Assembly: GCF_025602895.1 (NCBI RefSeq)
Contig: NW_026516453.1
Location: forward strand, 1-39,346
Direction of reading: 5' to 3'
From: Polychytrium aggregatum
Lineage: Eukaryota; Chytridiomycota; Chytridiomycetes; Polychytriales
DNA length: 39,346 nucleotides
Shown: in pieces, positions 4,817-39,346 of the stretch
Numbering within the stretch: the stretch's first letter is position 1
Layout of the letters: every line of letters starts with the position of its first letter
Made by a program: the position numbers and the translations under genes
The notes under the pieces: model-generated
What the model was told of the DNA's origin: nothing
Databases searched by the model: none
The model's input: the letters and a program-made list of their open reading frames with translations, nothing else

Positions 4817-5282
4817 GACCAGTGGACAAGCTGCTGGACCTGCTCAGTTTCGATCGCACTCCCCCTCGCAGTCGCACCCCTCCCGCACTTGGATCACTTG
4901 CTGCTCATGTACCCGCTCCCCGCACTGCCTTCCGAGCATTCGCACTTGGTGCACACCCAGCACCACCACCCACTCCCACACCCAGTGTAGTCCCACCCTT
5001 GCAGTCTCTCCCTGCACCCTCATCACAGCGTAGTATAGTGTCAGCACTTGTCATTCCTCCACCCCGACCCCCCCTCGATCCTGCTGTTCCCTTGTGGGAA
5101 CTGCTCGAAAATGTGTTCACCCGCTTGGTCTCAGACCTTGTGGGCAGCTGAGGCAGCACTAGGCTGCAACAGGAGTAAATAGGCTTGCCTGTGTACTCAA
5201 CGTGCCGGGGTACCAACCTGTTGGACCTGATGGCTTGTCTTCTTGAATAAAGTTGACTATAGTAACAAAAAAAAAAAAAAAA
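4817..5282 (+). mobile_element. LINE 3' remnant downstream of Gypsy-1, with poly(A)
   Basis: This is the part of a LINE copy lying 3' of the Gypsy-1 insertion. It encodes the last ~110 residues of ORF2, a Pro/Ala/Thr-rich tail with no recognised domain, ending at TGA 5149-5151. A ~115-nt 3' UTR follows, with GAATAAAG about 20 nt before a 16-A tail (5267-5282). It equals 37032-37496 on the right side of the window except for small indels, and 27593-28058 of intact copy L2. Confidence 0.93.
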
Positions 5283-5360
5283 CGTGCCGGGGTACCAACC
5301 TGTTGGACCTGATGGCTTGTCTTCTTAAATAAAGTTGACTATAGTAACAAAAAAAAAAAA
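5283..5360 (+). repeat. 66-bp LINE 3'-end fragment plus A12
   Basis: This is a copy of only the last 66 bp of the LINE, starting CGTGCCGGGG, followed by 12 A. It carries a diagnostic change (TTAAATAAAG instead of TTGAATAAAG) also present at 28059-28136 and 37497-37573. It lies between the poly(A) of the preceding LINE and the truncated 5' end of the next. It may be an extremely 5'-truncated insertion, or a 5' tag transcribed from an upstream neighbour's 3' end. Confidence 0.92.
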
Positions 5361-8300
5361 CTGTCTCCCGCGCCGGTCTCCGCGTTGTGCCTCCAGCTGT
5401 GATCCCGACCCACACCCGGCAGCGGGGTCCCAGCTGGACAACGATCGACTACATCTTTGTGTCGCATCGCCAGGCCAACAACGACCCGCTGCTGCAGGTC
5501 GACACTGCCGGTGCCTTCCGTGGCCAGTCCGACCACTTCCCCATCTGGGCGACTCTGCGGGTACAGCCAAAGTACTACCCAAAGGTCGACCAATGGCAGT
5601 GGAAGATCGCCCAGCTCGAGGATCCTGCCGTCCGCGCCCAGTACCTCTTGGCGCTGCTGGACGAGCGCGAACGCGGTCTGCAGCGCATCCAGGCTGCACT
5701 CCGGCCAATCTCAAGGGGATCGGTCATTCCGATCTCGGAGAGTGCGGCCCAGGACTGCATCGACCGCGCCTGGTCCATCATGATCGCCCTGATCACCACC
5801 GCTGCCGACTCCACCATCGGCAAGGCTTCCATCAAGACCGTCTGGAAGGACCCGGCCCTGATCCCCGAGATGCGGCAGCTTCGCGAGAGGCGCCGCGATC
5901 TCATCTACCAGCTCAAGTTGCCCGGGCTCTCCCTCCGCGTCGCCGAGGACAAGCGCGCCGAACTCCGCGCTGTCCGCAAACAAGAAAAGAACCTCATCGT
6001 CCAGTCCCGCCGAGCAGCCGAGACCCTGGCCATGAACAAGCTGCACTCCCTCAACGCTTCCGAGGTCGCCAAGTCCCTGGCCGCCATGAAGAAGCGCAAG
6101 GAGCTCGACGACGCCTTCCACTTTGACAACTCGGACGAGGCCCTCGAGCGACTTGTGGTCCACTACGGCAAGGTCTCCTCGCACTCCCAGGACACCCCCG
6201 GTGCCGCCTTTGACCGGACCGTCGGCCCAAGACCCCTGGACACTGTTCCGCGCCTGCTCCCCGAGGACCGCTCCATTCCCCGATTGTCGTCGGACGAGGT
6301 GGCCGATGCCATCGTCAAGTCCCCCAAGCGCAAGTCTTCCGGCCCGGACAAGATCAAGGCCGAGATGCTGCACCCTGTCGCTCCCGTGGTCGCTCCCTGG
6401 CTCCGGGCCATCCTGCTGGCCGCCCTCAAGGCCTCCGTCGTCCCGACCGAGTGGAACACTGTCCTGATCCACCCGGTCTACAAGAACAAGGGTTCGATCC
6501 TCGATCCGGCCATGTACCGGCCCATCGGGTTGACCCAGGTCCTCCGCAAGATCGCCGAGCGAGTCCTGCTGCCGTTCCTCACCCGCGAGATCGGCATCAT
6601 GGACATTGCCCAGGGAGGCTTCCGCCCGGACCGAGGCACCCTCGACCAGGTGTACTCGCTCGACGCTCTTGTCCGCATGAACAAGATCCGCGACGACGAG
6701 TACAGCCTGGTCTTCCTCGACATCAAGGCCGCCTACGACACTGTCTGGCGGGAGCGCCTCTGGGACAAGATCGCCACCCGAGGTGCTGGTCCGGTCGCCG
6801 TCGGGGTCCTCAGGGCCATGTTCGACCGCACTCTTGTCCGCGTCGCCAGCAAGGGCCGCACGTCGCAGCCTGTGTGGCTGCAGAAGGGTCTCATCCAAGG
6901 CTCGGTCCTGAGTCCCCTTCTGTTCAGTGCCCACATTGACGACCTGCCTGGACTGCTCCGAGCCGAGGACGGACTTGTGCTTGCCTCGAGTCGCCACCAC
7001 CGTCTCCGGGTCAACTCGCTCTGGTTTGCCGATGACGGTGTCCTCATCTGTCCGGCTGGCCGCACCCAGGCCATGCTGGATATCTGCGAACGCCACAGCA
7101 TCGACAACCGGTACCGCTTCTCGCCTCCCAAGTGCGAGGTGCTGTACTCGGCCTGCAACGTCGACCAGCTCCATCCCGCCAAGCTGTACGGCACCGAGCT
7201 GCCCAAGGTCCTCCAGTTCCGCTACCTCGGTGTCATGGTCGACATTGACGGATTCCGCCCGGACCTCCAGTTCGACAAGCTCCTCCGCAAGGTCCACATG
7301 GTCACCGACACCGTGGTTGGACTCGGCATCACCCTCGGCAAGGTCTCGGCCAAGACCATCACCCAGGTCTACAAGACCTTTGTGCGGCCGACCCTCGAAT
7401 ACGGGATGGCCATGGACATCCCCGACCCAGCTCTGCGCGACCGCCTCGACGACGCCCAGATGACGGCCCTCCGCACCATGTTCCGCGTCGGCCCCGGCAC
7501 TCCCGTCGGTGCCATGCACCTCAACTGCGGCCTTCCCAAGATGTCGGTCCGTGTCAAGATGCTGGCCCTGCAGAACTGGGCCCGCTGGGACGACCAAGTC
7601 TCTGACGGCGACAAGATGCTGTCGATGATCCTGCGCAACAAGATCATTGCGCCCTACCACCCCGACCAGTTCCTCGGCCAAGGAGTCCGAGCCGATCCGC
7701 ACTGGGCCATGGTGGTCCGCCGACAAGAGGCCGACCACTCCCTCACGGCCACGGAGATCTACCGAGGCAAGACCCGACACCAGCCGCCGCCGCCCGGACC
7801 GCCCCGACCCCAGCCCGTCCCGATCAAGACCCTCATCTTCGAGGACCACATGAAGAACGGCTTCGACCGCTCCAAGCAGCTCACCGCCGCCTGCACCCCG
7901 TCGACCAAGATGTCGGGACTCTGGGAGGCTCGCGGGTACCAAGGATCCATGATCATGCTCATGTTCATGGTCCGATGGCGACTCGGTGCTCTCCCAGGCC
8001 ACTTCAGATTTGGCTACCGCAAGTGCAAGAACCTGGCTCGACACGGATCCGGGATCGACTTGACCAGGACCCACGCACAGCAGTGTGTGGATCCGCATCA
8101 AGTCCTGGTCCGCAAGGTCGCAGCCCTCAAGACGGCCCACCCGACTTGGGTGGAAAGTGGTATAGCCGGAGTGGGACCAGTGGACAAGCTGCTGGACCTG
8201 CTCAGTTTCGATCGCACTCCCCCTCGCAGTCGCACCCCTCCCGCACTTGGATCACTTGCTGCTCATGTACCCGCTCCCCGCACTGCCTTCCGAGCATTCG

Positions 8301-8639
8301 CACTTGGTGCACACCCAGCACCACCACCCACTCCCACACCCAGTGTAGTCCCACCCTTGCAGTCTCTCCCTGCACCCTCATCACAGCGTAGTATAGTGTC
8401 AGCACTTGTCATTCCTCCACCCCGACCCCCCCTCGATCCTGCTGTTCCCTTGTGGGAACTGCTCGAAAATGTGTTCACCCGCTTGGTCTCAGACCTTGTG
8501 GGCAGCTGAGGCAGCACTAGGCTGCAACAGGAGTAAATAGGCTTGCCTGTGTACTCAACGTGCCGGGGTACCAACCTGTTGGACCTGATGGCTTGTCTTC
8601 TTGAATAAAGTTGACTATAGTAACAAAAAAAAAAAAAAA
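5361..8639 (+). mobile_element. LINE copy T1, 5'-truncated, poly(A)-tailed
   Basis: This LINE begins inside the endonuclease region of ORF2, at the base equivalent to 24779 of copy L2, and runs to the normal 3' end with a 15-A tail (8625-8639). It has no 5' UTR or ORF1. Its truncation point and the tagged fragment before it are identical to those of T2 (28137), so T1 and T2 descend from one insertion by duplication. T1 lacks the Gypsy-1 insertion and thus gives an empty site near 8175. Confidence 0.95.
5363..8509 (+). pseudogene. LINE ORF2, 5'-truncated (copy T1)
   Basis: This frame is open from the equivalent of residue 177 of the intact ORF2 to its stop. It lacks endonuclease residues N22, E49, D151 and N153 but keeps the TTIDY and SDH motifs. 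The whole reverse transcriptase is present (SSGPDK..., FADD at intact residues 731-734), as is the Pro-rich C-terminal region. No ATG lies near the 5' end of the frame, so this is a dead 5'-truncated copy although it has no internal stop. Without the catalytic half of the endonuclease it could not nick DNA. Confidence 0.93.
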
Positions 8640-8696
8640 CCTGATGGCTTGTCTTCTTGAATAAAGTTGACTATAGTAACAAAAAAAAAAAAAAAA
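8640..8696 (+). repeat. 41-bp LINE 3'-end fragment plus A16
   Basis: The last 41 bp of the LINE, starting CCTGATGGCT, follow directly on T1's poly(A). They are followed by 16 A and then by the CCTAA tract. It retains the GAATAAAG signal. It is the shortest of the fragments in this array. Confidence 0.92.
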
Positions 8697-8721
8697 CCTA
8701 ACCTAACCTAACCTAACCTAA
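8697..8721 (+). repeat. Telomere-like repeat (CCTAA)5
   Basis: Five perfect CCTAA units, TTAGG on the bottom strand, lie between an A16 tail and the 5' end of full-length LINE L1 (CCCTGACAC...). The C-rich strand reads left to right, so a chromosome end would be to the left. The same number of units occurs before L2 at 21683-21707. None is found before truncated copies. Confidence 0.85.
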
Positions 8722-8740
8722 CCCTGACACATCGAGTTCT

Positions 8741-8880
8741 CTGCTCCTGCCGCACCTATCCTGCTCCTGCTGCACCTGTCCTGCTCTTGCTGCACCTGTC
8801 CTGCTCTTGCTGCACCTGTCCTGCTCTTGCTGCACCTGTCCTGCTCCTGCTGCACCTGTATTGCTCTTGCTGCACCGTGT
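8741..8880 (+). repeat. Seven 20-bp tandem repeats in LINE 5' UTR
   Basis: Seven units of about 20 bp, consensus CTGCTCTTGCTGCACCTGTC, are exactly in phase. The first has CCG for CTG and the last is degenerate. They lie 20 bp downstream of the CCTAA tract and 105 bp upstream of the ORF1 start. L2 has the same array at 21727-21866. The 5' position suggests promoter or RNA-structural repeats, by analogy with tandem monomers in mammalian L1 5' UTRs; that role is inference. Confidence 0.88.
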
Positions 8881-8984
8881 GGCCTGCACCACACTGCTTT
8901 CACCTCTGTGTTTGTTCCAGCTCTGCCCCTCCAGTTCCCCGCCCTCGCTCCCACACTCCCTGTCCCCTTCCCCACTGCTGAGCG

Positions 8985-9600
8985 ATGTCCAAGGACAGAC
9001 CCCAGCAGTCCCTTCTCCCGGCCTCGACCATCGCTGTCGGCAGCTTGATCTTCAAGCGCAAGGAGCGACCCGTGGCCACCCCTTCCTCCCCCGCCAAGCG
9101 TCGCCTGTCCTTGCCCGACGCAATGACCATGCTCCCCAGGCCGGAGCATGACGAGCGTCTCCCCGAGTCCGAGTTCCCGTCCGTGTCCGTGCCCGAGTCC
9201 AGGCTCCCGGCCCCGCCCGAGTTCAGGTTCCCGGCCGAACCCGACTTTTCGTTCCCGCCCTTGGACCGCGCTGCCGCCCGTGCCGCCGTCGACATTGATG
9301 AACTGGAGGACATCAATGTCGAAGAAGACCTCAGCCCGGACCAAGAGCCTGACGCTGAGCCCTCGTCCTCCTGTGCCGACCAAGACCACCCTGCCGAGTC
9401 CCTGGCTCCCGTGTCCTCCTCCGCCGCTCCCCACCAAGACCACTGTGCCATGGACATTGTTGTCCAGCCCAGTGCCGACGTCGTCTCGGTTCCTTGGCGC
9501 GACGAGTTCTGGCGCAAGTGGCACGCCTCGTCCGACGTCGATGATCAGAAGGCTGCAACCCAGATCATCGACGTCACCAAGATGAACAACCAGCTGTGGA
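8985..9600 (+). pseudogene. LINE ORF1, 5' part (copy L1), interrupted by Gypsy-2
   Basis: This holds residues 1-205 and the first base of codon 206 of the Gag-like ORF1. It starts at ATG 8985 and is identical in plan to ORF1 of L2 (21971-24256). The segment contains a basic patch (KRKERP...AKRR) and a Pro/acidic-rich stretch. The frame runs into the Gypsy-2 LTR and stops at about 9653. The remainder resumes at 16010. Confidence 0.93.
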
Positions 9601-10391
9601 TGTTAGAGTCCGAAGGGGACTCAACGGCAAAAGAAGAAGTGAGCTCGAAGTGAGCTCAGGGAAGGCAAGGGTAAAGTCCGAAGTGGACTCGGAGAGGGAG
9701 CGAGGGAAGCAAAGATCCGTTCAAGATAAGACTTGTCTCGAAATGAGACGTGAGGAACACTCAGAGAATAAAGTAGAAGGCACTTTATTTAGTCCTATTT
9801 TGAACGCTGAGGTTCGACTACACATCGCGGGGGTCAGGCTATTTATAGACAAGTCCGGACTTGGCAGCGAAGGGCGGCCAAGGGAGGGAAAAGTGGGCGA
9901 TCGAGCAGGGCGAAGGGGGCGATGCACGAACGAGGGCCGAGAAGGACCACCGAGACAGGCAGAGAACCAAAGCGAGGGAGGCGCAAGCAAAAGCGAAGCA
10001 CCTGGCAGGAGAAACGTGCAAAGGCGAAGCAATGTGACTCAACGTCCAAGAAGCGGATTGGTCAAGTATAAGGTTGGGGCAAATGCATGCGAGATGAACA
10101 AGAGATCGGGGCGGTCAGGCAGGTCATGAGTCACCGGTGGTGGGACACATGACCGGCAGCCGAATTGCAACCAATCGCAGCAAGGCGCGTGCACAAACAA
10201 ACCGGCGCGTGCGAAGAAGACAAAGGAAGCGGAGCAGCGCGGGGAAACGGAAGTGCGGAAGGAGCGGAAATGGCAGGCAAAAGGCGGAAAATTGGAGGGG
10301 AACTGCAAAGCTACACACAAACAAACAGAAAGGCAAAAGAACAGCCAAGTGTGCAGTCAAAGTGGAGAACAAGCAGAAGCTATCCCTAACA
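9601..10391 (-). repeat. Gypsy-2 3' LTR
   Basis: This is the 791-bp LTR at the element's 3' end (left side). On the minus strand TATAAATAG begins at 9847 and the 12-nt self-primer begins at 9808. An inverted repeat AATAAAGT/ACTTTATT at 9767-9789 places AATAAA on both strands. Near the left edge are short palindromes around GAGTCC...GGACTC and a direct duplication of GAAGTGAGCTC. Confidence 0.95.
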
Positions 10392-10403
10392 TCATCCCCT
10401 TCC

Positions 10404-13400
10404 TTAGCGACGAACTCCGGGCGTCGCCTTCGGCTTTGAGGGATAGCGAAGGTGGAAGTCAGCAACAAGATCAGTGGCGTGGGAAACATTGGCAGCGGGC
10501 TCCCAAGACCGGTCAGTCTCGGAATAGCCCTTCCACTGAACCAAGTACTGTAAGCGACCACGGAAGAGCCGAGAATCGAGAACAGTCTCGACCTCAAACT
10601 CTTCCTGGGAGTCAACAAGAATGGGTGGAGGTTCGGGTTGGGTGAACTCGGGAACAATGTCCTTCGTTCGGGGTTCAAGGAGGGATACATGAAAGACGGG
10701 GTGGACTTTGAGTGTGGAAGGGAGTTTAAGTTCAAAGGCAACGGGGTTGATGCGGCGAAGAACTTTAAAGGGGCCAAGCTTTTTCTGATCAAGCTTGTTG
10801 GAGGGACGAAGGGTGCGGATGTGGCGACGATCAAGAAAAACGAGGTCGCCAACGGAGATGTCGGGAGTGGGGAGACGGGATTTGTTGGCCTGCAAAGTGT
10901 AGGACTCTTGGGCAACCCGGAGGTTGGCCTTGAGATCCTCGAGAACGGTCTGAAGTCGGTCGACACGTTCTTCGGCAGAGGGCACAACAGAAGGATCACG
11001 GATGATGGAGGGATCAAAAATGGGGTGATGGCCATGGACTGCAAAGAAGGGAGTCATGCCAGTGGAGGTGTTTTCCGAGTTGTTGTAAGTGAACTCGGCA
11101 AGGGGAAGGTGAAGGGTCCAGTCGTCTTGCAGGTAATTGCAATGGATACGCAAATACTGCTCGATGACCTGGTTGAGAACCTCGGTCGAACCGTCGGTCT
11201 CGGGGTGGAAGGCAGAAGAAAGGGAAATCTTCGTCTTCAGAAGCTCATTGAAGCGCCTCCAGAAGGCCGAAGTAAACTGAGTTCCTCGGTCCGAAACAAT
11301 AGACCGGGGACAACCATGCAAGCGGAAGATGTGGGAGAGGAAGAGTTCGGCGGTTTGCTCGCCTGTAACCGTCTTCGTGGTGGGCACAAAGTGTGCTTGT
11401 TTGGACAGGCGGTCCTTAACCACGAAGATGGAGTCAAAGCCGTTCGAAGGTGGGAGATCCGTGATGAAGTCCATCGACAGGTCCCACCAACGTTCGGAAG
11501 GAACGGGGAGAGGGTGAAGTAAACCATAAGGGGAGTGACGGGACGGCTTGGCTCGCTGGCACGCTTCACAATTAGCAATGAAGCGACGCACAGACTTACG
11601 AAGCCGGGGCCAGTGAAAGTCCCGGGAGATGAGCTCAACGGTCTTGGCAAGACCAAAGTGACCAGCGGCAGCGGAGCAGTGACGTTGCTCAAACACTTTG
11701 AGCTGGAGCTCGGGGGAAGGGACAACGATCAGGTCTTTAAAGTAAAGGAGACCGTCACGGAAGGAGTAATCGCCATCAAGACGTTTGGCGTTGAAGTCAG
11801 AAAGAAGGGAACAAGAAAGGGTGGCAGCTCGAATCTCGGAAAGAAAATCGGGGTTCGAGCCGATAACGGTGATGCTGTCGAGAGAAATAGACTCGAACAG
11901 CTGAAGGAAGTTGGTGGAGTGGAGGGAGTCACCAGGCTTTATCTCAAAGTCAGAACGGCGACTGAGAGCATCGGCTTTGGTGTTGAGGCGACCAGGGCGG
12001 TGGTAAATGCGAAAAGCAAAATCAGAAAGGAATTGGGCCCACCGGAACTGGCGGCGAGAAAGTTGGGAAGCGGAAGTGAACCGGGTGAGGTTCTGGTGAT
12101 CAGAGAAAACAAGAGTGGGATGATCGGGGTCGGCAGCCATCAAGTAATGACGCCAGGCAGTAAAGGAATCGACAATAGCAAGGAGCTCTTTGTCGTGGGT
12201 GTCATAATTCACCTCGGCGGGACGGAATTGCCGAGAGTGAAAAGCAACGGGGTGAAGAGCGCCGTCAGGGTCAAACTGGGAAAGGACGGCACCCAGAGCA
12301 AAGTCAGAAGCATCGGGCTCGATGACAGCGGGTTTGGAGAAATCAAAGTAACGAAGAATAGGTGCGGAAGTGAATGAACGTTTAAGAGAATCAAAAGCCT
12401 CTTGGGCCTCGGGAGACCAAGAGAAGGTGGAGGATTTGGTGGTGAGTGAAGTCAAAGGACGAGCAAGTGCGGAAAAGTCCTTGACGAAGCGGCGGTAAAA
12501 GTTTGCGAAACCAATAAAAACTTGGATGTCGCGAGCAGAAGAGGGAACAGGCCAAAGGGAAACGGCCTCGACCTTGGCAGGGTCCATTTTAATGCCATCG
12601 GCAGAAATGATCATGCCGAGAAAGTCAACTTCAGAAAGGTCAAAAGAACACTTGGCCGGATTGACCTTAAGAGAGTGTTCACGAAGGCGAGAAAGAACAA
12701 GCTTAACATGCTCCTCATGCTCCAGGGGATCTTTTGAGAAGATCAGGATGTCGTCAAGATAAATGACAACACAGACACCAAGGAGGTCCGAGAAGATGTC
12801 GTTCATAAAAAACTGAAAAGCAGCGGGGGCATTCGAAAGACCAAAGGGGATAACATTGTACTCGTAAGAGCCAGATTTGCAAACAAAAGCAGTCTTCCAC
12901 TCATCGCCCTTCTTGACACGAACCAAGTGGTAAGCATCAGGAAGGTCAAGGTGTGAGAAGACGCGGGCAGAAGAAAGTTTATCCAGAAGATCCTGGAAGA
13001 GGGGAAGAGGGTAGCGGTTCTTCTTCGTGATGGCATTGAGGCCCCGGTAGTCGACGCAAAGGCGAAGACCACCATTGGGCTTCTTCACGAAGAAGCAGGG
13101 AGCACCAACGGGAGAAGAGGATTTGGAGATCCAACCACGTGCGAGGGCGTTGGTCAGATACTCCGAAAGAGCAGATTCCTCGGCCGGGGACAAAGGATAG
13201 ACTTTCCCCGGCTTTGGCAAACGAGGTTCCTTTCCATCCTCGGTCCGTACAAACTCAATAGACAAGTCATACGGACGGTGAGGAGGCAAGGAAGAAGGAG
13301 GGTCAGACTTGAGGCTGAAAACGTCGCCAAACTCATTGTATTTGAGCGGGACACCTCGAGAGTCAACAGGGGTGCCAGACTCGGCATACACCTTCGTCGT

Positions 13401-14219
13401 GAGCACGGACCTTATCGACACCGTAGGATACGTCTCCGGCGAAGGAGGACGGATATCCATTTGGGCAGCGAAAATGTCGAGCTTGTCTTCCCGTGCAAGA
13501 CGGAGAAGACTCGCCGCATTAACGAGCTCAATGTCGGGCGAAGATAAAGCCGTTGGCTCTTCAGAAAGCGAAGCAGAGTCAAGGCGGGAAGAAAGGGAAG
13601 GCGAAGTGCCAAAGGAGGGAACCGGTGTAAGGGAAGGACCGGAGGGAGGAGTCAAAGGCGAAGTGCCCGAAGGGGGAGGCGAATAGCCGGAAGGGGACGA
13701 AGTGTCCAAGGAGGAAGCAGAGACATCCGCGAGGATGTGTCCATCAGCAAGGCAAGAGGGATCGGAGAACGAAAGGGAGAGGGACTTCCAATTGACAACT
13801 GGATTATGCAAGCGCATCCAGGGAAGACCAAGAGTGATGGGAGTGGTGGAGAGTCGAGTCACAAGAAAAGAAATCGACTCGGTGTGGGAACCAATGGTCA
13901 ACGTCACAGGAACGGTTTGGAAACGAATGAAACCGGCCGAAGAACCATCAGCAAGGGAAACGGAGTAGGGAGTAGAAAGAGGGATAAGAGAGAGTTTATG
14001 GAGATCCGCAAAGGCAGGATCAATGAGGGCAAGAGCGGTGCATCCATCATCAATAAAGACAGAAAGGGAGATGGAGACCGGGCCAGAAAGACTCATGACG
14101 ACAAGGGTGGCCGGAAGAAGAAGCTTATCGTCCGATAATGACGAGTCAGAGGGGGAAGATGTTCGTATCGCCGAACAGACCACCTCGCTTACTTGCGAGG
14201 TGCTGCTCGGCTGTGGGCA
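10404..14219 (-). CDS. pol: Gypsy-2 Pol (protease-RT-RNase H-integrase-chromodomain)
   Basis: This polyprotein copies element RNA into DNA and integrates it. No ATG lies near its start; it is read by -1 frameshift from gag at 14219-14225. Counting residues from TTG 14279, it has a protease-like FIDDGC (77-79; DDG rather than the usual DSG/DTG), RT YLDD (Y507, D509, D510), RNase H EPDASDFALG, and an integrase HHCC finger (GHFG..., CEAC). The integrase triad is D937-x59-D997-x35-E1033 (DD35E), followed by a GPF-type module and a C-terminal chromodomain (FEVETVLDSR...WKGYSETDRSWEP). The stop TAA at 10404-10406 abuts the polypurine tract. No internal stop is seen. The chromodomain is expected to bind methylated histone H3 and direct insertion to heterochromatin. 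Confidence 0.95.
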   Translation of the reverse strand, partial: CPQPSSTSQVSEVVCSAIRTSSPSDSSLSDDKLLLPATLVVMSLSGPVSISLSVFIDDGCTALALIDPAFADLHKLSLIPLSTPYSVSLADGSSAGFIRFQTVPVTLTIGSHTESISFLVTRLSTTPITLGLPWMRLHNPVVNWKSLSLSFSDPSCLADGHILADVSASSLDTSSPSGYSPPPSGTSPLTPPSGPSLTPVPSFGTSPSLSSRLDSASLSEEPTALSSPDIELVNAASLLRLAREDKLDIFAAQMDIRPPSPETYPTVSIRSVLTTKVYAESGTPVDSRGVPLKYNEFGDVFSLKSDPPSSLPPHRPYDLSIEFVRTEDGKEPRLPKPGKVYPLSPAEESALSEYLTNALARGWISKSSSPVGAPCFFVKKPNGGLRLCVDYRGLNAITKKNRYPLPLFQDLLDKLSSARVFSHLDLPDAYHLVRVKKGDEWKTAFVCKSGSYEYNVIPFGLSNAPAAFQFFMNDIFSDLLGVCVVIYLDDILIFSKDPLEHEEHVKLVLSRLREHSLKVNPAKCSFDLSEVDFLGMIISADGIKMDPAKVEAVSLWPVPSSARDIQVFIGFANFYRRFVKDFSALARPLTSLTTKSSTFSWSPEAQEAFDSLKRSFTSAPILRYFDFSKPAVIEPDASDFALGAVLSQFDPDGALHPVAFHSRQFRPAEVNYDTHDKELLAIVDSFTAWRHYLMAADPDHPTLVFSDHQNLTRFTSASQLSRRQFRWAQFLSDFAFRIYHRPGRLNTKADALSRRSDFEIKPGDSLHSTNFLQLFESISLDSITVIGSNPDFLSEIRAATLSCSLLSDFNAKRLDGDYSFRDGLLYFKDLIVVPSPELQLKVFEQRHCSAAAGHFGLAKTVELISRDFHWPRLRKSVRRFIANCEACQRAKPSRHSPYGLLHPLPVPSERWWDLSMDFITDLPPSNGFDSIFVVKDRLSKQAHFVPTTKTVTGEQTAELFLSHIFRLHGCPRSIVSDRGTQFTSAFWRRFNELLKTKISLSSAFHPETDGSTEVLNQVIEQYLRIHCNYLQDDWTLHLPLAEFTYNNSENTSTGMTPFFAVHGHHPIFDPSIIRDPSVVPSAEERVDRLQTVLEDLKANLRVAQESYTLQANKSRLPTPDISVGDLVFLDRRHIRTLRPSNKLDQKKLGPFKVLRRINPVAFELKLPSTLKVHPVFHVSLLEPRTKDIVPEFTQPEPPPILVDSQEEFEVETVLDSRLFRGRLQYLVQWKGYSETDRSWEPAANVSHATDLVADFHLRYPSKPKATPGVRR

Positions 14220-15142: not shown

Positions 15143-15199
15143 CGGATCGACGAGGGAAAGAGAGGCGAAAGAAGAAGAAAGGCCGGGAAGCCAAGAGGG

Positions 15200-15211: not shown

Positions 15212-15213
15212 GA

Positions 15214-16004: not shown

Positions 16005-16009
16005 GTGGA

Positions 16010-30955: not shown

Positions 30956-31374
30956 TGTGATGACCAGCATCACAACGGACCAATGAGATTGTCCCGCATG
31001 CTCTCGCCCTCCGCACCAATCATGAGTCCCCACGTGTTTGTTTGCCCCCATGCATGAGCACGCGCCGTTGCCACCCGCGTCTACTGGTTTCCTGCCTCCC
31101 CCACCGCTCGGCACATGTCCCCGGGCTGTGCCAAGCCTCTCTCGCTTGCACACCAGCCACTCTCGCACCCCCTTCTCGCTTCTCTGTGATGCTCCACCCT
31201 TCTCGCCCACTTTTGCCCCTCGACCTTCTCCCGGTCTATAAATAGCCCTGCATGTCTGAGCCTATGTTGAACACCAGTTCGAACAAAACTTGTTCTTTGG
31301 TGTTCGGGGCTAAAAGCTAATAAAGCTCATACCAAGCACTTGGTCTTCGTCCTTGCGCTTGTTCACTCCTTACA
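30956..31374 (+). repeat. Gypsy-1 5' LTR with promoter
   Basis: This 419-bp LTR opens with the palindrome GTGATGACCAGCATCAC (30957-30973). TATAAATAG begins at 31237, the inferred transcript start is A31276, and AATAAA lies at 31319-31324. The start of R lies in nested inverted repeats: GAACACCA (31269) with TGGTGTTC (31298), and GAACAA (31281) with TTGTTC (31290). Confidence 0.95.
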
Positions 31375-31375
31375 C

Positions 31376-31387
31376 TTTGTTCGAACT
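31376..31387 (+). promoter_or_regulatory. Gypsy-1 primer-binding site for self-priming
   Basis: TTTGTTCGAACT, starting 1 nt after the 5' LTR, is the exact reverse complement of AGTTCGAACAAA at 31276-31287 in the LTR. That self-primer starts 39 nt after the first T of TATAAATAG, the same distance as in Gypsy-2. It fits Tf1-type self-priming by the RNA's 5' end, and the site lacks a tRNA-type TGG start. Confidence 0.88.
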
Positions 31388-31551
31388 CTCTTCTACTGAT
31401 ACCACCTGCTTGGTATCTTCCGCTCCTAGCCCCGCCCCTTTCCTAGTCCTGTCCGAACCTCAAGCACACTTGTGTCTGAGCCCTCTTCGCTCTCCTGTTC
31501 TTGAACCTCCTCGCTTTTTTTTTTTTTCCCAGTCCCAGTCCCAGTCCCGCC

Positions 31552-32529
31552 ATGGATCCTGCCCTCGTGGACCGCCTCCGTGCCTTGGAGGCCGAGCTCG
31601 CCGAGCTCCGGACAGCTCGCGATGCTCCTGCCGCTGGGTACAGCGTGCAGATGCCGGACCGTTACGACGGTAACCGGCAAGGGTTCCGGGCATTCGTAAA
31701 TCAGTGCAAACTGTATATACGAATGCAGCCCCACCGGTTCCCTGCTGACCCGATTAAGGTCGGATTCGTCATTAGTCTGCTCACTGGACCGGCTCTCCAG
31801 TGGGCGACTCCGATGCTTGAGATGGGTGATCCCCGACTCAACTCTTTTGGCGATTTCCTAGAACGCTTTTCCAAAGTGTTTGACGACCCTGATCGGGCCA
31901 GGACTGCCGAGTCAGTGATCACCACACTGTCTCAGGGCAACCGCCCGTGCGCAGTCTATGCATCCGAGTTCCTTCGTATTGCCGCCGATACGACTTGGAA
32001 CGACGGTGCAAAGATCTCGTTCTTCCGACTTGGCTTGTCGGATGATGTCAGAGACGAACTTTCGCGAGTTCGCCCTCTGCCACGAGATCTGGAGGAGTAC
32101 ATCGAGCTTTGTAACGAGCTCGATGCACGAATCCGCGAGCGCCGTCAAGAGCGCCGAAGCACGCCTGCCCGCTACCGGTCTTCCCAGTTCGCCTTTGGTT
32201 CCGCCTCCGCTGCCGTTCCCGCCATCGCTCCCGCGCCCGTCCTCGCTCCGCCGCACCCCTCCTACATTGTTTCCGAGCCCATGCAAGTGGACTCTGCCGT
32301 CTCTGGACCCCTGACCGCCGAGGAGAAACAACGCCGCCGCCGCTTTGGACTCTGCCTGTACTGTGGCAAGAAGGGCCACTTGGTACGAAACTGCCCCGTC
32401 AAGTTTGGATCTACCAGAGCTACCGGACCGCCCCCTGGACCTCCCGGCCCGAGGATCATCCGCACCATCGTTTACGAAGATGGAGAAGTGCAAGACTTCA
32501 GTTCGGGAAACGACCAGGCCCGGTTCTAA
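31552..32529 (+). CDS. gag: Gypsy-1 Gag
   Basis: This is a structural particle protein of 325 residues. ATG 31552 is chosen because it is the first ATG after the leader; the open frame upstream passes through a T-rich tract with no ATG. Residues ~4-25 form a short heptad-like helix (VDRLRALEAELAELRTARDA). Residues ~33-200 are a retrotransposon-Gag domain (ALQWATPMLE, FLERFSKVFDD). A Pro/Ala linker leads to a canonical CCHC knuckle, C268-x2-C271-x4-H276-x4-C281, which binds RNA. The stop is TAA 32527-32529. Pol follows in the -1 frame with overlap. The frame is undamaged. Confidence 0.95.
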   Translation: MDPALVDRLRALEAELAELRTARDAPAAGYSVQMPDRYDGNRQGFRAFVNQCKLYIRMQPHRFPADPIKVGFVISLLTGPALQWATPMLEMGDPRLNSFGDFLERFSKVFDDPDRARTAESVITTLSQGNRPCAVYASEFLRIAADTTWNDGAKISFFRLGLSDDVRDELSRVRPLPRDLEEYIELCNELDARIRERRQERRSTPARYRSSQFAFGSASAAVPAIAPAPVLAPPHPSYIVSEPMQVDSAVSGPLTAEEKQRRRRFGLCLYCGKKGHLVRNCPVKFGSTRATGPPPGPPGPRIIRTIVYEDGEVQDFSSGNDQARF

Positions 32530-32566
32530 GTGAAGGCCTTGAACCGGAGCCGTGCCCACCGCCTTC
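32505..32566 (+). promoter_or_regulatory. Gypsy-1 -1 frameshift signal: GGGAAAC plus pseudoknot
   Basis: The gag codons are TCG GGA AAC, making GGGAAAC (32505-32511) an in-phase X-XXY-YYZ heptamer, the same heptamer known from simian retrovirus gag-pro. An 8-nt spacer precedes stem 1, CCGGTTC (32520-32526) with GAACCGG (32541-32547). Loop bases GAAGGC (32532-32537) can pair with GCCTTC (32561-32566), giving an H-type pseudoknot. Slippage lands in the pol frame at 32511. The gag stop lies inside the structure. The left copy has the heptamer at 286-292. Confidence 0.85.
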
Positions 32567-35500
32567 CGAAAGTGAAGACATTGGTAAGGTGCCTTTGGTA
32601 AGTACTGGGGAAGCAGTGATGTGCGGACAGCTTCGCCTTGCCTCTGGACCGGCGGACACTCTCAGCTCTGGCATAGTACCCGTGGCACCTCTGGTGTCAC
32701 TGGGAACTGCACCTCATCCACAGGTGCAAATACCTGAGCTGTCCTGCCAACCCTCGGCAAAGTTAACTGTCTGTGCTAGCCGCAACCCTGGTGCCGAAGC
32801 TGGTACCGAACCAAAGTCTTGTGTTTCGTCTGTTCGTCGTTGCTCGTTGGTTGTTCCCGTCGCTGTTCGTCTTCCTTCTGGTGATTCTCTGTCGTGCGAA
32901 GGACTTGTCGATTCTGGTGCCTCTGGCAACTTTATCGACGAGGACTTTGTTGCTCGACACTCTGTCCCCACCTGCTCCAAGGCTTCGCCCTTGGCAGTGG
33001 AAGGCGTGGATGGTAAGCCGCTGTCGTCTGGCCCCATCCTCCGCGAGACTGCTCCACTCGAGGTGATTCTCGGGGACGTCTCGCAACGCCTTCGGTTCGA
33101 TGTGATCAGGTCTCCACATCAACCACTTATCCTTGGCTTTCCTTGGTTGCGCACCGCCGAGCCCAAGATTGTCTGGTCTCGCGGTCTTCTTTGTCTCCCT
33201 CCTTCTGTTGATTCCGACCCCTCTCCATGCACTACTTCTCTTTCGTCTTGCTCCACTTCCTCCAATGTCACTCCCCTTCTTGATGATTCCACTCCTTTGA
33301 TTGATCTAAGCTCCTCTCCTACGCTCCCACCTTCGTCTTCCCCTTCTTGTCTTGTTCCTCCCGAACCCCTTCGCTCTTCCCAAACCCCTTCTTCTGTTGT
33401 CAGTTCTCTTTCCCTCCTTGATGTACCTCCTCCTGTTGTTTGTTCTTCGGACATTGTTCAGAATAAAGTAACCGTCGAACATTATTCTGACCTTGTCCAC
33501 GCCCCTCCTCTCAGCTCGGACGCTCCTCTCCGCGTCTGCAGCATTGATTACCGCTCGATGCGCGAGTCTTTGGATGCATGCAGGCATGGAACGCAACCCC
33601 TGACCATCTTTCAGGTCCATGTCCTGCCCACTGACGAGCCGAGCACTGCGACTGTCGAAGTGCCTGCGGAGTACAAGGACTTCCTGTCTGTTTTCTCTAA
33701 ACAGGAAGCTGACTCCTTGCCTCCGCATCGCCCTTATGACTGCCCCATTGACTTGGAGCCGGGCAAGTCGCCAAAGTTCGGGCCTCTGTACTCACTGTCC
33801 GAGCCCGAACTTCACGCTCTGCGTGACTATCTCGACGAGAATCTTGCCAAGGGATTCGTTCGTCCTTCGTCGTCCCCAGCAGGCTCACCAATCCTCTTCG
33901 TCAAGAAGAAGGACGGCTCACTTCGTCTTTGCGTTGACTACCGCGCACTGAACGGTATCACGGTAAAGAACCGTTACCCTTTACCGCTGATCGGCGAGCT
34001 GCTGGACCGACTTCGAGGCGCGAAGGTGTTCACTAAGCTGGACCTTCGTGGAGCCTACAATCTGCTGCGCATCCGCTCCGGGGACGAGTGGAAGACAGCT
34101 TTCCGTACTCGATATGGGCACTTCGAGTACTTGGTGATGCCCTTTGGGCTCACCAACGCGCCAGCGACGTTCCAGCACTTCATCAACGACGTCCTGCGCA
34201 CCGAGTTGGACCAGTTCGCAATTGCGTATCTTGACGATATCTTGATCTACAGTGCTGATCCGTCGCAGCATGTAGAGCACGTCAAGCAGGTCCTCTCGAA
34301 GCTCCGAGCTGCAAAGCTGTATTGCAAGCTGGAGAAGTGCGAGTTCTCCAAAACCTCGGTCTCGTTCCTTGGTTTCATGGTCTCGCCCGAGGGCATCGGT
34401 ATGGAGCGATCCAAGCTCTCTGCGATCTTGGATTGGCCCATACCGCGCAACATCTCGGATCTTCGATCCTTTGTCGGGTTTGCGAACTTCTATCGACGCT
34501 TCATCGATGGATACGCAAAGATCGCGGGGCCCATGACTCGGCTCTTCCGGAAGACGCATGGCTTCCAGTGGTCCCGCGAAGCCGATAAAGCATTCAGATC
34601 CTTGAAGGATGCCTTCGTTTCGGAGCCCGTTCTGGTGCATCCGGACCCATCCAAGCCGTTCGTCGTAGAGTCAGATGCGTCGGACTTTGCGCTTGGATGC
34701 GTGCTCTCCCAGCGGGGTGCTGATGATCGCCTTCATCCTTGCTCGTTCCATTCGCGGACACTCTCGAATGCTGAACGTAACTACAGCATATACGAGAAAG
34801 AGCTGTTGGCGATCAAGGAGGCTTTCGAGGCGTGGCGACACTACCTCGAAGGCGCCCAGCATCCCGTTGCCGTTCTGACCGATCACAAGAACTTGGAGTA
34901 CCTGGCAACGGCTCGCATCCTAAACCAGCGTCATGCACGGTGGTCCCAGTTCTTGTCTCGGTTCGACATCCGCATCCAGTACCGTCCTGGTGCGAGGAAC
35001 GGCAAGGCCGATGCCCTGTCTCGTCGCTCGGACTACATCCCTTCGTCGGCCTCCGTGTCGAGGGATCCGCCTCTGCTTCTCGATCCTGCCGCGGTGATAC
35101 GCGTGCTCCGAAGCAGAGACGCCCGCTCTTCGGTTGCAAGTCGCAGTGACCCTGTGGATTTGCTGCAGCTCATAGCCGAAGAGCAGGCTCGGGATCCCGG
35201 TCTAGACAAATACCGTCGTGACCCGAAGTTCGTCTGGAATGGCCAGTACCTCACCTTCCAGAACAGGATTGTGGTCCCAGAGTCGTGCCGAGTTCCGGCG
35301 CTCAAGTCGTGCCATGACCCAGTCGCTGTGGGTCATCCAGGCATCCGACGGACTCTGGCTCTGGTATCGCGACAGTTTTGGTGGCAAACCTATCGGAAAG
35401 ATGTCAAAGAGTACGTCTCGACGTGCGACACCTGTGCACGCTCGAAAGCTCCGCGACACAAGCCGTTTGGGTTCCTGTTGCCACTCCAGACAGCCGATCG

Positions 35501-36611
35501 ACCCTGGGGGACACTGACCATGGACTTTATCACTGATCTGCCAAAGTCCAAGGGTCACACCTGCATCTTTGTGGTGGTATGCAGCCTCACAAAGATGGCA
35601 CACTTTATGTCCTGGCGTTCACTGCCGTCGGCGGAGGAGACTGCGTCACTGTTCCTCGACAATGTCTTTCGTCTCCATGGCCTCCCCGACACAGTGGTTT
35701 CAGACCGAGGAAGTCAGTTCACCTCTCGGTTCTGGAAGGCACTCTGCACGCAGCTCGGGATCCAAACCAGTCTGTCCACGGCCTTCCATCCCCAGACCGA
35801 TGGACAGACTGAGAGGGTCAACCAGGTCATCAACCAATACCTGCGCTGTTACACGTCGTATCAGCAAGATGACTGGGCCGAGCTGCTGCCGTTGGCCGAG
35901 TTCTCTTACAATAACCTCGAGAACTCGTCAACACATGCCTCGCCATTCTTGGCAACCTATGGGTTCCACCCAAGGTTCGAAGTCCCCGTTGTCGCTGGCG
36001 GCCCTGATGTTCCCTCTGCCACGGAGAGGGTTGAACATCTCCAGCGGAACCTGGCACTGTTGAAGGAGAATCTTGAGAAGGCAAAGTCTGACTACAAGCA
36101 CTTCTCAGATCTCCGGAGGTCCCAGGCTCCCGACTTGCGTCCGGGCGATCAAGTCTGGGTGCTGACTCGTAACATCAGCACCACTCGCCCAAGCAAGAAG
36201 CTGGATTACCAGAGGATTGGACCATTCACCATCCTCGAGGCCGTCGGGACATTGGCTTTCCGCCTGGACTTGCCAAAGGACATAAAGGTGCACCCGGTGT
36301 TCCATGTGTCTCTTCTTGAGCCCTACAAGAAGAACTCGCTTCCGGGTCGGGTGCAAGCGCCGCCCCCTGCGGTGGTCATCGATGGGAACTTGGAGTGGGA
36401 GGTCGAAGAGATCTTAGACTCCAAGTTCGTGCGCGGAAAGCTGCACTATCTCATCGATTGGAAAGGCTACCCGGTCACCGATCGAAGTTGGGAGCCCGCC
36501 GACATTGTCTTTGCCCCAACGGTGGCCGCGGAGTACCACCGACGCTACCCAGACAAGCCTGGCCCCAGGAGAACTCAAGATGGAACACGCCGTAGTTTAA
36601 GGAGGAGATAG
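32511..36611 (+). CDS. pol: Gypsy-1 Pol (protease-RT-RNase H-integrase-chromodomain)
   Basis: This is made as a Gag-Pol fusion by -1 frameshifting; the frame is open from before the gag stop and has no early ATG. Counting from GTG 32589, it has aspartic protease DSGA (108-111), RT with LDLRGAY and YLDD (547-550), RNase H ESDASDFALG (from 694), and an integrase HHCC finger (H909 to CDTC ~948). The integrase triad is D979-x59-D1039-x35-E1075, followed by GPF (IGPFTI) and a C-terminal chromodomain (~1268-1325: WEVEEILDSK...WKGYPVTDRSWEP). This order defines chromoviruses. The stop TAG (36609-36611) touches the LTR, so the polypurine run AAGGAGGAGA (36599-36608) that primes plus-strand synthesis is itself coding. 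No internal stop. Confidence 0.96.
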   Translation, partial: RPGPVLSEGLEPEPCPPPSESEDIGKVPLVSTGEAVMCGQLRLASGPADTLSSGIVPVAPLVSLGTAPHPQVQIPELSCQPSAKLTVCASRNPGAEAGTEPKSCVSSVRRCSLVVPVAVRLPSGDSLSCEGLVDSGASGNFIDEDFVARHSVPTCSKASPLAVEGVDGKPLSSGPILRETAPLEVILGDVSQRLRFDVIRSPHQPLILGFPWLRTAEPKIVWSRGLLCLPPSVDSDPSPCTTSLSSCSTSSNVTPLLDDSTPLIDLSSSPTLPPSSSPSCLVPPEPLRSSQTPSSVVSSLSLLDVPPPVVCSSDIVQNKVTVEHYSDLVHAPPLSSDAPLRVCSIDYRSMRESLDACRHGTQPLTIFQVHVLPTDEPSTATVEVPAEYKDFLSVFSKQEADSLPPHRPYDCPIDLEPGKSPKFGPLYSLSEPELHALRDYLDENLAKGFVRPSSSPAGSPILFVKKKDGSLRLCVDYRALNGITVKNRYPLPLIGELLDRLRGAKVFTKLDLRGAYNLLRIRSGDEWKTAFRTRYGHFEYLVMPFGLTNAPATFQHFINDVLRTELDQFAIAYLDDILIYSADPSQHVEHVKQVLSKLRAAKLYCKLEKCEFSKTSVSFLGFMVSPEGIGMERSKLSAILDWPIPRNISDLRSFVGFANFYRRFIDGYAKIAGPMTRLFRKTHGFQWSREADKAFRSLKDAFVSEPVLVHPDPSKPFVVESDASDFALGCVLSQRGADDRLHPCSFHSRTLSNAERNYSIYEKELLAIKEAFEAWRHYLEGAQHPVAVLTDHKNLEYLATARILNQRHARWSQFLSRFDIRIQYRPGARNGKADALSRRSDYIPSSASVSRDPPLLLDPAAVIRVLRSRDARSSVASRSDPVDLLQLIAEEQARDPGLDKYRRDPKFVWNGQYLTFQNRIVVPESCRVPALKSCHDPVAVGHPGIRRTLALVSRQFWWQTYRKDVKEYVSTCDTCARSKAPRHKPFGFLLPLQTADRPWGTLTMDFITDLPKSKGHTCIFVVVCSLTKMAHFMSWRSLPSAEETASLFLDNVFRLHGLPDTVVSDRGSQFTSRFWKALCTQLGIQTSLSTAFHPQTDGQTERVNQVINQYLRCYTSYQQDDWAELLPLAEFSYNNLENSSTHASPFLATYGFHPRFEVPVVAGGPDVPSATERVEHLQRNLALLKENLEKAKSDYKHFSDLRRSQAPDLRPGDQVWVLTRNISTTRPSKKLDYQRIGPFTILEAVGTLAFRLDLPKDIKVHPVFHVSLLEPYKKNSLPGRVQAPPPAVVIDGNLEWEVEEILDSKFVRGKLHYLIDWKGYPVTDRSWEPADIVFAPTVAAEYHRRYPDKPGPRRTQDGTRRSLRRR

Positions 36612-37031
36612 TGTGATGACCAGCATCACAACGGACCAATGAGATTGTCCCGCATGCTCTCGCCCTCCGCACCAATCATGAGTCCCCCACGTGTTTGTTT
36701 GCCCCCATGCATGAGCACGCGCCGTTGCCACCCGCGTCTACTGGTTTCCTGCCTCCCCCACCGCTCGGCACATGTCCCCGGGCTGTGCCAAGCCTCTCTC
36801 GCTTGCACACCAGCCACTCTCGCACCCCCTTCTCGCTTCTCTGTGATGCTCCACCCTTCTCGCCCACTTTTGCCCCTCGACCTTCTCCCGGTCTATAAAT
36901 AGCCCTGCATGTCTGAGCCTATGTTGAACACCAGTTCGAACAAAACTTGTTCTTTGGTGTTCGGGGCTAAAAGCTAATAAAGCTCATACCAAGCACTTGG
37001 TCTTCGTCCTTGCGCTTGTTCACTCCTTACA
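36612..37031 (+). repeat. Gypsy-1 3' LTR
   Basis: This is a 420-bp LTR, identical to the 5' LTR apart from one extra C near 36689. TATAAATAG is at 36894 and AATAAA lies about 80 nt further. GACCA follows directly as the right-hand target duplication. Confidence 0.96.
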
Positions 37032-37496
37032 GACCAGTGGACAAGCTGCTGGACCTGCTCAGTTTCGATCGCACTCCCCCTCGCAGTCGCACCCCTCCCG
37101 CACTTGGATCACTTGCTGCTCATGTACCCGCTCCCCGCACTGCCTTCCGAGCATTCGCACTTGGTGCACACCCAGCACCACCACCCACTCCCACACCCAG
37201 TGTAGTCCCACCCTTGCAGTCTCTCCCTGCACCCTCATCAAGCGTAGTATAGTGTCAGCACTTGTCATTCCTCCACCCCGACCCCCCCTCGATCCTGCTG
37301 TTCCCTTGTGGGAACTGCTCGAAAATGTGTTCACCCGCTTGGTCTCAGACCTTGTGGGCAGCTGAGGCAGCACTAGGCTGCAACAGGAGTAAATAGGCTT
37401 GCCTGTGTACTCAACGTGCCGGGGTACCAACCTGTTGGACCTGATGGCTTGTCTTCTTGAATAAAGTTGACTATAGTAACAAAAAAAAAAAAAAAA
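37032..37496 (+). mobile_element. 3' part of LINE T2 after Gypsy-1
   Basis: This holds the ORF2 C-terminal tail and 3' UTR with an A16 tail. It matches 4817-5282. One C is missing in CATCAAGCG near 37240 compared with every other copy, which shifts the end of ORF2. Confidence 0.93.
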
Positions 37497-37573
37497 CGTG
37501 CCGGGGTACCAACCTGTTGGACCTGATGGCTTGTCTTCTTAAATAAAGTTGACTATAGTAACCAAAAAAAAAA
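37497..37573 (+). repeat. 66-bp LINE 3'-end fragment plus short A tract
   Basis: This is the third copy of the fragment with the TTAAATAAAG variant. It ends GTAACC plus 10 A rather than GTAAC plus 12 A, again suggesting lower sequence quality here. It corresponds to 5283-5360. Confidence 0.92.
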
Positions 37574-39346
37574 CTGTCTCCCGCGCCGGTCTCCGCGTTG
37601 TGCCTCCAGCTGTGATCCCGACCCACACCCGGCAGCGGGGTCCCAGCTGGACAACGATCGACTACATCTTTGTGTCGCATCGCCAGGCCAACAACGACCC
37701 GCTGCTGCAGGTCGACACTGCCGGTGCCTTCCGTGGCCAGTCCGACACTTCCCCATCTGGGCGACTCTGCGGGTACAGCCAAAGTACTACCCAAGGTCGA
37801 CCAATGGCAGTGGAAGATCGCCCAGCTCGAGGATCCTGCCGTCCGCGCCCAGTACCCTCTTGGCGCTGCTGGACGAGCGCGAACGCGGTCTGCAGCGCAT
37901 CCAGGCTGCACTCCGGCCAATCTCAAGGGGATCGGTCATTCCGATCTCGGAGAGTGCGGCCCAGGACTGCATCGACCGCGCCTGGTCCATCATGATCGCC
38001 CTGATCACCACCGCTGCCGACTCCACCATCGGCAAGGCTTCCATCAAGACCGTCTGGAAGGACCCGGCCCTGATCCCCGAGATGCGGCAGCTTCGCGAGA
38101 GGCGCCGCGATCTCATCTACCAGCTCAAGTTGCCCGGGCTCTCCCTCCGCGTCGCCGAGGACAAGCGCGCCGAACTCCGCGCTGTCCGCAAACAAGAAAA
38201 GAACCTCATCGTCCAGTCCCGCCGAGCAGCCGAGACCCTGGCCATGAACAAGCTGCACTCCCTCAACGCTTCCGAGGTCGCCAAGTCCCTGGCCGCCATG
38301 AAGAAGCGCAAGGAGCTCGACGACGCCTTCCACTTTGACAACTCGGACGAGGCCCTCGAGCGACTTGTGGTCCACTACGGCAAGGTCTCCTCGCACTCCC
38401 AGGACACCCCCGGTGCCGCCTTTGACCGGACCGTCGGCCCAAGACCCCTGGACACTGTTCCCGCGCCTGCTCCCCGAGGACCGCTCCATTCCCCGATTGT
38501 CGTCGGGACGAGGTGGCCGATGCCATCGTCAAGTCCCCCCAAGCGCAAAGTCTTCCGGCCCGGACAAGATCAAGGCCGAGATGCTGCACCCTGTCGCTCC
38601 GTGGTCGCTCCCTGGCTCCGGGCCATCCTGCTGGCCGCCCTCAAGGCCTCCGTCGTCCCGACCGAGTGGAACACTGTCCTGATCCACCCGGTCTACAAGA
38701 ACAAGGGTTCGATCCTCGATCCGGCCATGTACCGGCCCATCGGGTTGACCCAGGTCCTCCGCAAGAATCGCCGAGCGAGTCCTGCTGGCCGTTCCTCACC
38801 CGCGAGATCGGCATCATGGACATTGCCCAGGGAGGCTTCCGCCCGGACCGAGGCACCCTCGACCAGGTGTACTCGCTCGACGCTCTTGTCCGCATGAACA
38901 AGATCCGCGACGACGAGTACAGCCTGGTCTTCCTCGACATCAAGGCCGCCTACGACACTGTCTGGCGGGAGCGCCTCTGGGACAAGATCGCCACCCGAGG
39001 TGCTGGTCCGGTCGCCGTCGGGGTCCTCAGGGCCATGTTCGACCGCCACTCTTGTCCGCGTCGCCAGCAAGGGCCGCACGTCGCAGCCTGTGTGGCTGCA
39101 GAAGGGTCTCATCCAAGGCTCGGTCCTGAGTCCCCTTCTGTTCAGTGCCCACATTGACGACCTGCCTGGACTGCTCCGAGCCGAGGACGGACTTGTGCTT
39201 GCCTCGAGTCGCCACCACCGTCTCCGGGTCAACGCGCTGGTTGCCGATGACGGTGTCCTCATCTGTCCGGCTGGCCGCACCCAGGCCATGCTGGATATCT
39301 GCGACGCCACAGCATCGACAACCGGTACGCTTCTCGCCTCCCAAGT
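37574..39346 (+). pseudogene. 5'-truncated LINE at right window edge, ORF2 with many indels
   Basis: This is the same start as T1 and T2; it runs to the window edge at the equivalent of 7133. It encodes ORF2 from the end of the endonuclease into the RT, up to just past the FADD region. The frame is broken by more than a dozen single-base indels (for example near 37746, 37793, 37855, 38460, 38505, 38538, 38600, 38765, 38790, 39046, 39235, 39304), mostly in short homopolymers and more frequent toward the end. All other copies are clean, so sequencing error at a contig end is the likely cause. Confidence 0.9.

Follow-up and report, generated by a model that had tools for sequence, protein, structure and literature searches.

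A LINE family that probably lives on the chromosome ends of the chytrid Polychytrium aggregatum alongside telomerase

Results

LINE copies lie head to tail on contig C170

The 39,346-nt window analysed here is an entire contig (C170; NW_026516453.1) of the 64.7-Mb, 418-contig assembly of Polychytrium aggregatum, and it carries repeated copies of a long interspersed nuclear element (LINE) family that we refer to as LINE-A. We find that this LINE, which has two open reading frames (ORFs) and an APE-type endonuclease, probably lives on chromosome ends alongside telomerase through the mechanism proposed in the Discussion. LINE segments in the window were located by self-BLAST using the uninterrupted copy L2 (21708-28058, 6351 bp) as the query. 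All 13 segments, found between 4817 and 39346, lie on the + strand and point right; identity to L2 is 100% in seven of them and 97.5-99.97% in the remainder. The family has the hallmarks of a LINE, namely a reverse transcriptase (RT) with an endonuclease, a poly(A) tail and 5' truncation. The features of the window are as follows (LTR, long terminal repeat).

1-4816, +: right part of Ty3/chromovirus B, truncated where the contig begins; repeat of the sequence from 32219 onward; the element at 30956-37031, one period on, is the same
about 4398-4816, +: 3' LTR of the Ty3-B right part, from sequence reading
4817-5282, +: LINE positions 5886-6351 with a terminal A16; 3' end of a copy into which Ty3-B inserted
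5283-5360, +: LINE 3' tail of ~80 bp with an AAATAAA variant, ending in A12
5361-8639, +: LINE truncated at 3072, ending in A15
8640-8696, +: LINE 3' tail of ~56 bp, ending in A16
8697-8721, +: (CCTAA)5, the telomere C-strand repeat, separating poly(A) from a LINE 5' end
8722-21481 (8722-9600 and 16005-21481), +: LINE copy L1, with the same 5' start as L2, split by Ty3-A
9601-16004, -: Ty3/chromovirus A with LTRs and target duplication GTGGA
21482-21682, +: LINE 3' tail of ~200 bp, ending in A13
21683-21707, +: (CCTAA)5
21708-28058, +: LINE copy L2, uninterrupted, with both ORFs; reference copy
21971-24256, +: ORF1 of L2, 761 aa
24253-27927, +: ORF2 of L2, 1224 aa from ATG, APE endonuclease and reverse transcriptase
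28059-28136, +: LINE tail of ~80 bp, second copy of 5283-5360
28137-37496 (28137-30955 and 37032-37496), +: LINE truncated at 3072, split by Ty3-B
30956-37031, +: Ty3/chromovirus B with LTRs and target duplication GACCA
37497-37573, +: LINE tail of ~80 bp, third copy
37574-39346, +: LINE from 3072, running off the contig; its indels resemble sequencing error

The window contains ten poly(A) runs (at 5267, 5349, 8625, 8681, 21466, 21670, 28043, 28125, 37481 and 37564). Immediately 3' of every run lies either one of the two (CCTAA)5 blocks or a 5'-truncated LINE, which is a tail of ~56, ~80 or ~200 bp or a copy starting at LINE position 3072. Where the target is truncated, its missing half is never present beyond the newer LINE. 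This loss of the distal target half is predicted by end-capping and not by insertion into intact DNA. The two Ty3/chromovirus elements, which carry a chromodomain and long open frames, split two LINE copies, each with a 5-bp target duplication (limits read by eye). Ty3-like sequence also occurs 3' of LINE poly(A) on C46, C112 and C124.

The two ends of the contig repeat each other, with 1-7133 matching 32219-39346 at 99.6% identity by self-BLAST. The 32 differing columns fall mostly at the edges of this overlap (the first 812 nt hold 10, the last 2.1 kb hold 21, and one lies between), as expected of thinly covered contig ends. C170 is either a linearised circle, a tandem array of 32.2-kb period or an assembly product of one of these. 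Because of the repeat, the ten junctions reduce to no more than six distinct ones (CCTAA follows at two of them, the 56-, 80- and 200-bp tails at one each, and the 3072 truncation at one): the junction pair 5267/5349 is seen again at 28043/28125 and 37481/37564, and the ~80-bp tail and the 3072 truncation occur three times each. As the original prediction held, all copies share one orientation, every poly(A) abuts CCTAA or a truncated LINE (with two copies additionally split by Ty3) and L2 is intact; its proposal of repeated addition to a chromosome end can explain at most six distinct junctions, while the other four and the periodic arrays described below need recombination or circle-templated copying.

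LINE-A encodes an APE-type endonuclease and a reverse transcriptase

ORF1 and ORF2 of L2 are both uninterrupted and overlap by ATGA. ORF1 matched no Pfam family at E values up to 1. The N terminus of ORF2 encodes an APE endonuclease (PF03372, 1.7e-13), and ORF2 gave no Pfam match to a REL endonuclease at E 0.001. Across 14 aligned sequences, no variation is seen at E43, D145, N147, D199 and H228, which we take to be the APE catalytic residues. The predicted structure of the endonuclease (pLDDT 80.6) had human L1 entries as its top Foldseek matches, with the TRAS1 endonuclease (1wdu) at rank 42 (TMt 0.76). Among solved structures in PDB, the RT matched human L1 at up to 62.4 bits and R2 at 47.1, a comparison that includes neither R1 references nor a tree. 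Since 60 of 263 candidates were scored, the ORF2 search represents a sample; within it, 35 of 48 LINE-A matches retain an open ORF2 frame of 1238 aa. LINE-A appears to have been active recently. A literature search found no published description of it.

LINE-A copies point outward near contig ends

An exact 25-base pattern for the LINE 3' end matched the genome 195 times (the first 100 with positions), and a stricter pattern (at least 14 A) matched 97 times with all positions known. Our position test set, drawn from these two patterns and from the telomere-junction matches described below, comprised 60 LINE 3' ends on 22 contigs of known length above 95 kb; beyond contig C224, sites with a short poly(A) were included only if telomeric. 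Using contig ends as a proxy for chromosome ends, we found that the LINE 5' end faces the nearer contig end for 57 of the 60 3' ends, and that the distance to a contig end is below 60 kb for 58 of them; zones of this width make up 19.1% of those contigs. Orientation was uniform at 20 of 23 contig ends (sign test, 4.9e-4). A broader list, with ORF2 and upstream-region sites added, gave the same picture (87/92 outward).

A second, related family, LINE-B, was first seen in L096 and has 23 matches in the genome, including C79:11236-20625 and sites on C20, C38, C112 and C408. It points outward and lies near an end at 10 of the 11 ends placeable on contigs of known length, the exception being C377:140192. 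Other LINE families served as a small control: six of their 12 ORF2 matches were placeable, and two of these six lie within 60 kb of an end, both in reversed orientation.

LINE-A is interleaved with telomere repeats

At the start of C39, 341 bp of CCTAA lead into a 51-bp LINE tail, which is followed by (CCTAA)5 and then by a LINE truncated at 3568. C40 ends in the mirror image of this arrangement: ~350 bp of TTAGG repeats adjoin a 253-bp LINE tail cut at 6096, inward of which lie five repeats and then the 5' end of a longer LINE. In addition, a TERT RNA-binding domain is encoded on C408 (three matches, best 6.4e-14). The genome therefore retains a predicted telomerase gene, its chromosome ends appear to consist of telomere repeats plus LINEs, and LINE-A is best described as a telomere-targeted LINE beside telomerase rather than its replacement.

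Boundaries between CCTAA and other DNA may also carry the mark of telomerase. Nine distinct breakpoints were collected from the loci read, not counting transitions to variant telomere repeats or an ambiguous boundary in L045. Four of the nine start with CCCTG (in one of the four, the bases are partly native). CCCTGA accounts for 2 of 136 repeat units in the end tracts of C39 and C40, and it also forms the first bases of L2. On sequence grounds, we read the CCCTG boundaries, including the start of L2, as probable de novo telomerase addition to a bare end via a variant repeat.

LINE-A 3' ends join telomere repeats and many other sequences

We found that 38 distinct LINE-A 3' ends continue into CCTAACCTAA (a manual count from 60 overlapping pattern matches; the reversed-pattern control gave 0). 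At all 38, the poly(A) is followed directly by CC. Among the loci read, 27 distinct sequences follow the poly(A), and 25 of the 27 are non-telomeric; these junctions look as if LINE-A had capped broken ends. The base preceding the break is A at 12 of 13 junctions with a known native target, against a chance expectation of 36% (about 4e-5, our own estimate by hand). Priming ends with a 3' T therefore appear to be favoured.

TRAS1 is reported to nick between the T and A of TTAGG (PMC7265360), and a nick of this type would yield the poly(A)|CCTAA register. LINE-A might thus behave purely as TRAS and SART do, with its APE endonuclease nicking double-stranded telomere repeats and never using a free end, and with LINE-LINE joins arising from later loss of repeats. 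The register at 38/38 telomeric junctions fits this explanation, as do the five invariant residues taken to be catalytic and the LINE tails of C39 and C40, which are flanked by repeats on both sides. It does not account for the non-telomeric sequence at 25 of 27 distinct junctions or for the loss of the distal half of non-telomeric targets in the window, and we consider it rather unlikely as a complete account.

Regular spacing points to duplication of blocks

The spacing of LINE 3' ends alternates between ~2,807 and 2,957 bp on C207, is ~5,178 bp on both C374 and C182, and is 16,607 bp on C13. The window has periods of 32,219 and 3,358 bp, and LINE-B forms a tandem array on C79 with a period of ~3,122 bp. 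These regular spacings show that blocks were duplicated. In MoTeR arrays, the presence of the same truncations throughout has been explained by D-loop extension or by rolling copying from a circle (PMC7367193), and such copying may apply to LINE-A arrays too.

The arrays could then be mostly products of recombination (break-induced replication, unequal exchange or rolling copying of telomeric circles) with few retrotransposition events. The periods listed above, breakpoints that are identical on several contigs, window ends that overlap as in a circular contig, and the like explanation of repeating MoTeR patterns (PMC7367193) all agree with this. However, 27 distinct sequences follow the poly(A), and the appearance of poly(A) at new sites needs more than recombination, making it improbable that recombination built most of what we see.

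A primase-helicase region adjoins many LINE-A copies

LINE position 7 (CACATCGAG) has two classes of 5' neighbour. In the first, 17 copies match GACACATCGAG, which is preceded by CCTAACCCT in the loci read. In the second, a shared region with TTCATCG at its end precedes 41 copies (e.g., L109 and C135:684503). Because the fused-junction pattern itself requires the LINE, a search with the region only provided an independent test. Of its 43 candidates, 40 were scored. Every one of the 39 that extend to the inner edge is fused to LINE-A, while the fortieth (C232:5924) ends short of that edge, where another insertion seems to split the region. The distal edge is cut at varied points, with LINE poly(A) or telomere at most of the cuts read.

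The region encodes the C-terminal part of a protein resembling the African swine fever virus (ASFV) primase C962R (PDB match, 6e-7). Its protein matches poxvirus D5 weakly (0.13) and DUF5906 below the cut-off (26.3 vs 27.6 bits). C101, C182, C193 and C374 carry open frames of 1036 aa (59% identical), which adjoin an 87%-identical form of the region with the LINE junction unchanged. More distant homologues (24-37%) lie elsewhere in the genome, and the one checked, on C377, has Ty3 rather than a LINE ~5.5 kb downstream. Region-bearing copies on C46, C112, C124, C35, C79 and C135 have different 3' flanks in all six cases examined. C375:455574-462384 is an interior copy consisting of 449 bp of the region, the LINE and A14 between non-telomeric flanks, which show no clear target duplication.

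The region may be the 5' part of the LINE element, as the C375 copy and the six different 3' flanks suggest, but we consider this somewhat less likely than not. It is at odds with the 17 copies that end close to position 7 and with the homologue that has no LINE, and the region might instead be a subtelomeric gene that spread together with the LINE by break-induced replication. If it does belong to the element, it would have a parallel in insect TRAS and R1 LINEs, for which viral helicase domains have been reported (PMC5563155, PMC4686597), albeit with a helicase of another type. An extended model, possible and still doubtful, would have a telomeric LINE of ~11 kb with three genes (ORF1, ORF2 and a D5/ASFV-C962R-like primase-helicase ORF of ~1036 aa) that heals bare ends; copies beginning at CACATCGAG would come from an internal start, and both LINE families, telomerase and circle-templated recombination would jointly maintain the ends.

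Individual loci

Wrong-way arrays lie close to two contig ends (C335:427-1873, with - copies at the left end, and C28:130041-132361, with + copies at the right end) and may represent misassembly or end-to-end fusion. At C112:710319 (L094), the poly(A) of an interior 256-bp LINE relic leads into CCTAACC and from there into Ty3-B, the other flank being unrelated DNA; the locus is perhaps a former end or a fusion. C285 (22,680 bp) bears inverted LINE copies near 9186 (+) and 21417 (-) with their 5' ends outward; a palindromic contig, an artefact or a hairpin-like end could explain this. At C135:641315 (L098), 57 kb from the contig end, LINE poly(A) joins an open frame that, by eye only, resembles a cyclic-nucleotide-binding stretch. 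The closest pair of LINE 3' tails noticed is 35 bp apart (C228:16363 and 16398).

Discussion

The mechanism that we propose for LINE-A starts with a 3' end of the G-rich telomere strand, whose terminal T would pair with the poly(A) of LINE RNA and prime reverse transcription. This 3' end could be an APE nick inside TTAGG repeats; alternatively, it could belong to the terminus of a telomere tract or to a chromosome stripped of its repeats by erosion. Priming on the G-rich strand would therefore leave each new copy with its 5' end outward and its poly(A) inward. The new 5' end might then be recapped by telomerase or receive the next LINE directly, and blocks would multiply by recombination or circle-templated copying. 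Mapping copies in the assembly, the check suggested with the original prediction, bore out its expectation: they concentrate at contig ends with their 5' ends outward, and C39 and C40 end in CCTAA with LINE tails. Between the end systems it had suggested, outward orientation (57/60) and position within 60 kb (58/60) favour the telomere-targeted one, while TERT and telomere repeats contradict a HeT-A-like replacement.

Several points weigh against this reading. Three copies are exceptions in orientation (C28:132337, C335:1829 and C112:710319) and two lie in contig interiors (C112:710319 and C375:462331). Long terminal CCTAA tracts were observed on C39 and C40 only, and not every contig end is a chromosome end, since repeats interrupt contigs too. 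A large share of the junctions derive from one another by copying, so that tests based on independence overstate certainty. Just 38 ends adjoin at least two CCTAA, compared with 195 exact tails (the patterns differ slightly). The native neighbour may differ from the DNA that was cut, because a truncated-LINE target may itself be a 5'-truncated insertion. Finally, the poly(A)|CCTAA register does not distinguish nicked from free ends: the free-end priming of the original prediction may have occurred, and a TRAS1-type nick within TTAGG would give this register equally.

Two further explanations can be weighed. In the first, collapsed or chimeric repeats in the assembly would create both the head-to-tail order and the overlapping contig ends. 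The window ends are error-rich, C285 has inverted copies within 22.7 kb, and end overlaps are typical of circularised or collapsed contigs; still, the same junction types recur on many contigs, long ones included, and misjoining would hardly yield short tails at distances of 35-204 bp that each have a poly(A) of their own, one of them carrying a variant base, so an artefact is very improbable. Equally hard to credit is an ordinary LINE accumulating in subtelomeric heterochromatin, where Ty3 elements gather too and poly(A) is joined to many kinds of DNA, given the orientation bias, the CCTAA at both element ends, the absent distal target halves in the window and the lack of this pattern among the few placeable LINEs of other families.

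We therefore favour a LINE that adds to chromosome ends beside telomerase. In an early-diverging fungus, telomere repeats and LINE additions are visible interleaved at base resolution, and the arrays offer a readable record of mobile DNA and telomerase sharing chromosome ends. Their junctions make it possible to study the choice that a LINE makes between nicks in telomere repeats and bare, broken ends, and they also bear on the recapping of retrotransposed ends by telomerase and on later array amplification.

LINE-A works like an element of the TRAS/SART, MoTeR or Zepp type. TRAS1 and SART1 of Bombyx mori, like LINE-A, have two ORFs and a host that retains its telomerase gene. They are described as telomere-specific LINEs of R1 families (PMC10088271), and LINE-A resembles them in its APE endonuclease, TTAGG target and expected nick register. 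Unlike them, many LINE-A copies sit directly on non-telomeric or LINE DNA, and the LINE-A RT matches human L1 structures better than R2 in a comparison that included no R1 references. Zepp of Chlorella has a nested head-to-tail anatomy. It is listed among LINEs inserted in telomere repeats (PMC10088271). Its host belongs to another lineage, and it is likened to LINE-A by description.

HeT-A, TART and TAHRE are added to broken ends and, like the LINE-A system, comprise more than one family. They are described as head-to-tail with poly(A) toward the centromere (PMC10088271), in Drosophila, which is reported to be without telomerase (PMC7265360). Unlike HeT-A and TART, LINE-A is accompanied by CCTAA tracts and a TERT domain; the RNA-binding domain on C408 and the terminal position of the tracts led us to reject a HeT-A-like replacement of telomerase. 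MoTeR of Magnaporthe and FoTeR of Fusarium have their 5' ends outward. Like LINE-A, they are fungal and telomere-embedded (PMC7367193, PMC12857005), and MoTeR arrays are described in the same sources as tandemly amplified. FoTeR and MoTeR1 are grouped with CRE, SLACS, CZAR and Cnl1 in a clade with a REL domain (PMC12857005). Membership of LINE-A in the CRE group was rejected, as an APE endonuclease was found in ORF2, with no REL match in Pfam at E 0.001. LINE-A thus differs from FoTeR and MoTeR1 in its class of endonuclease and in its separate ORF1 and ORF2.

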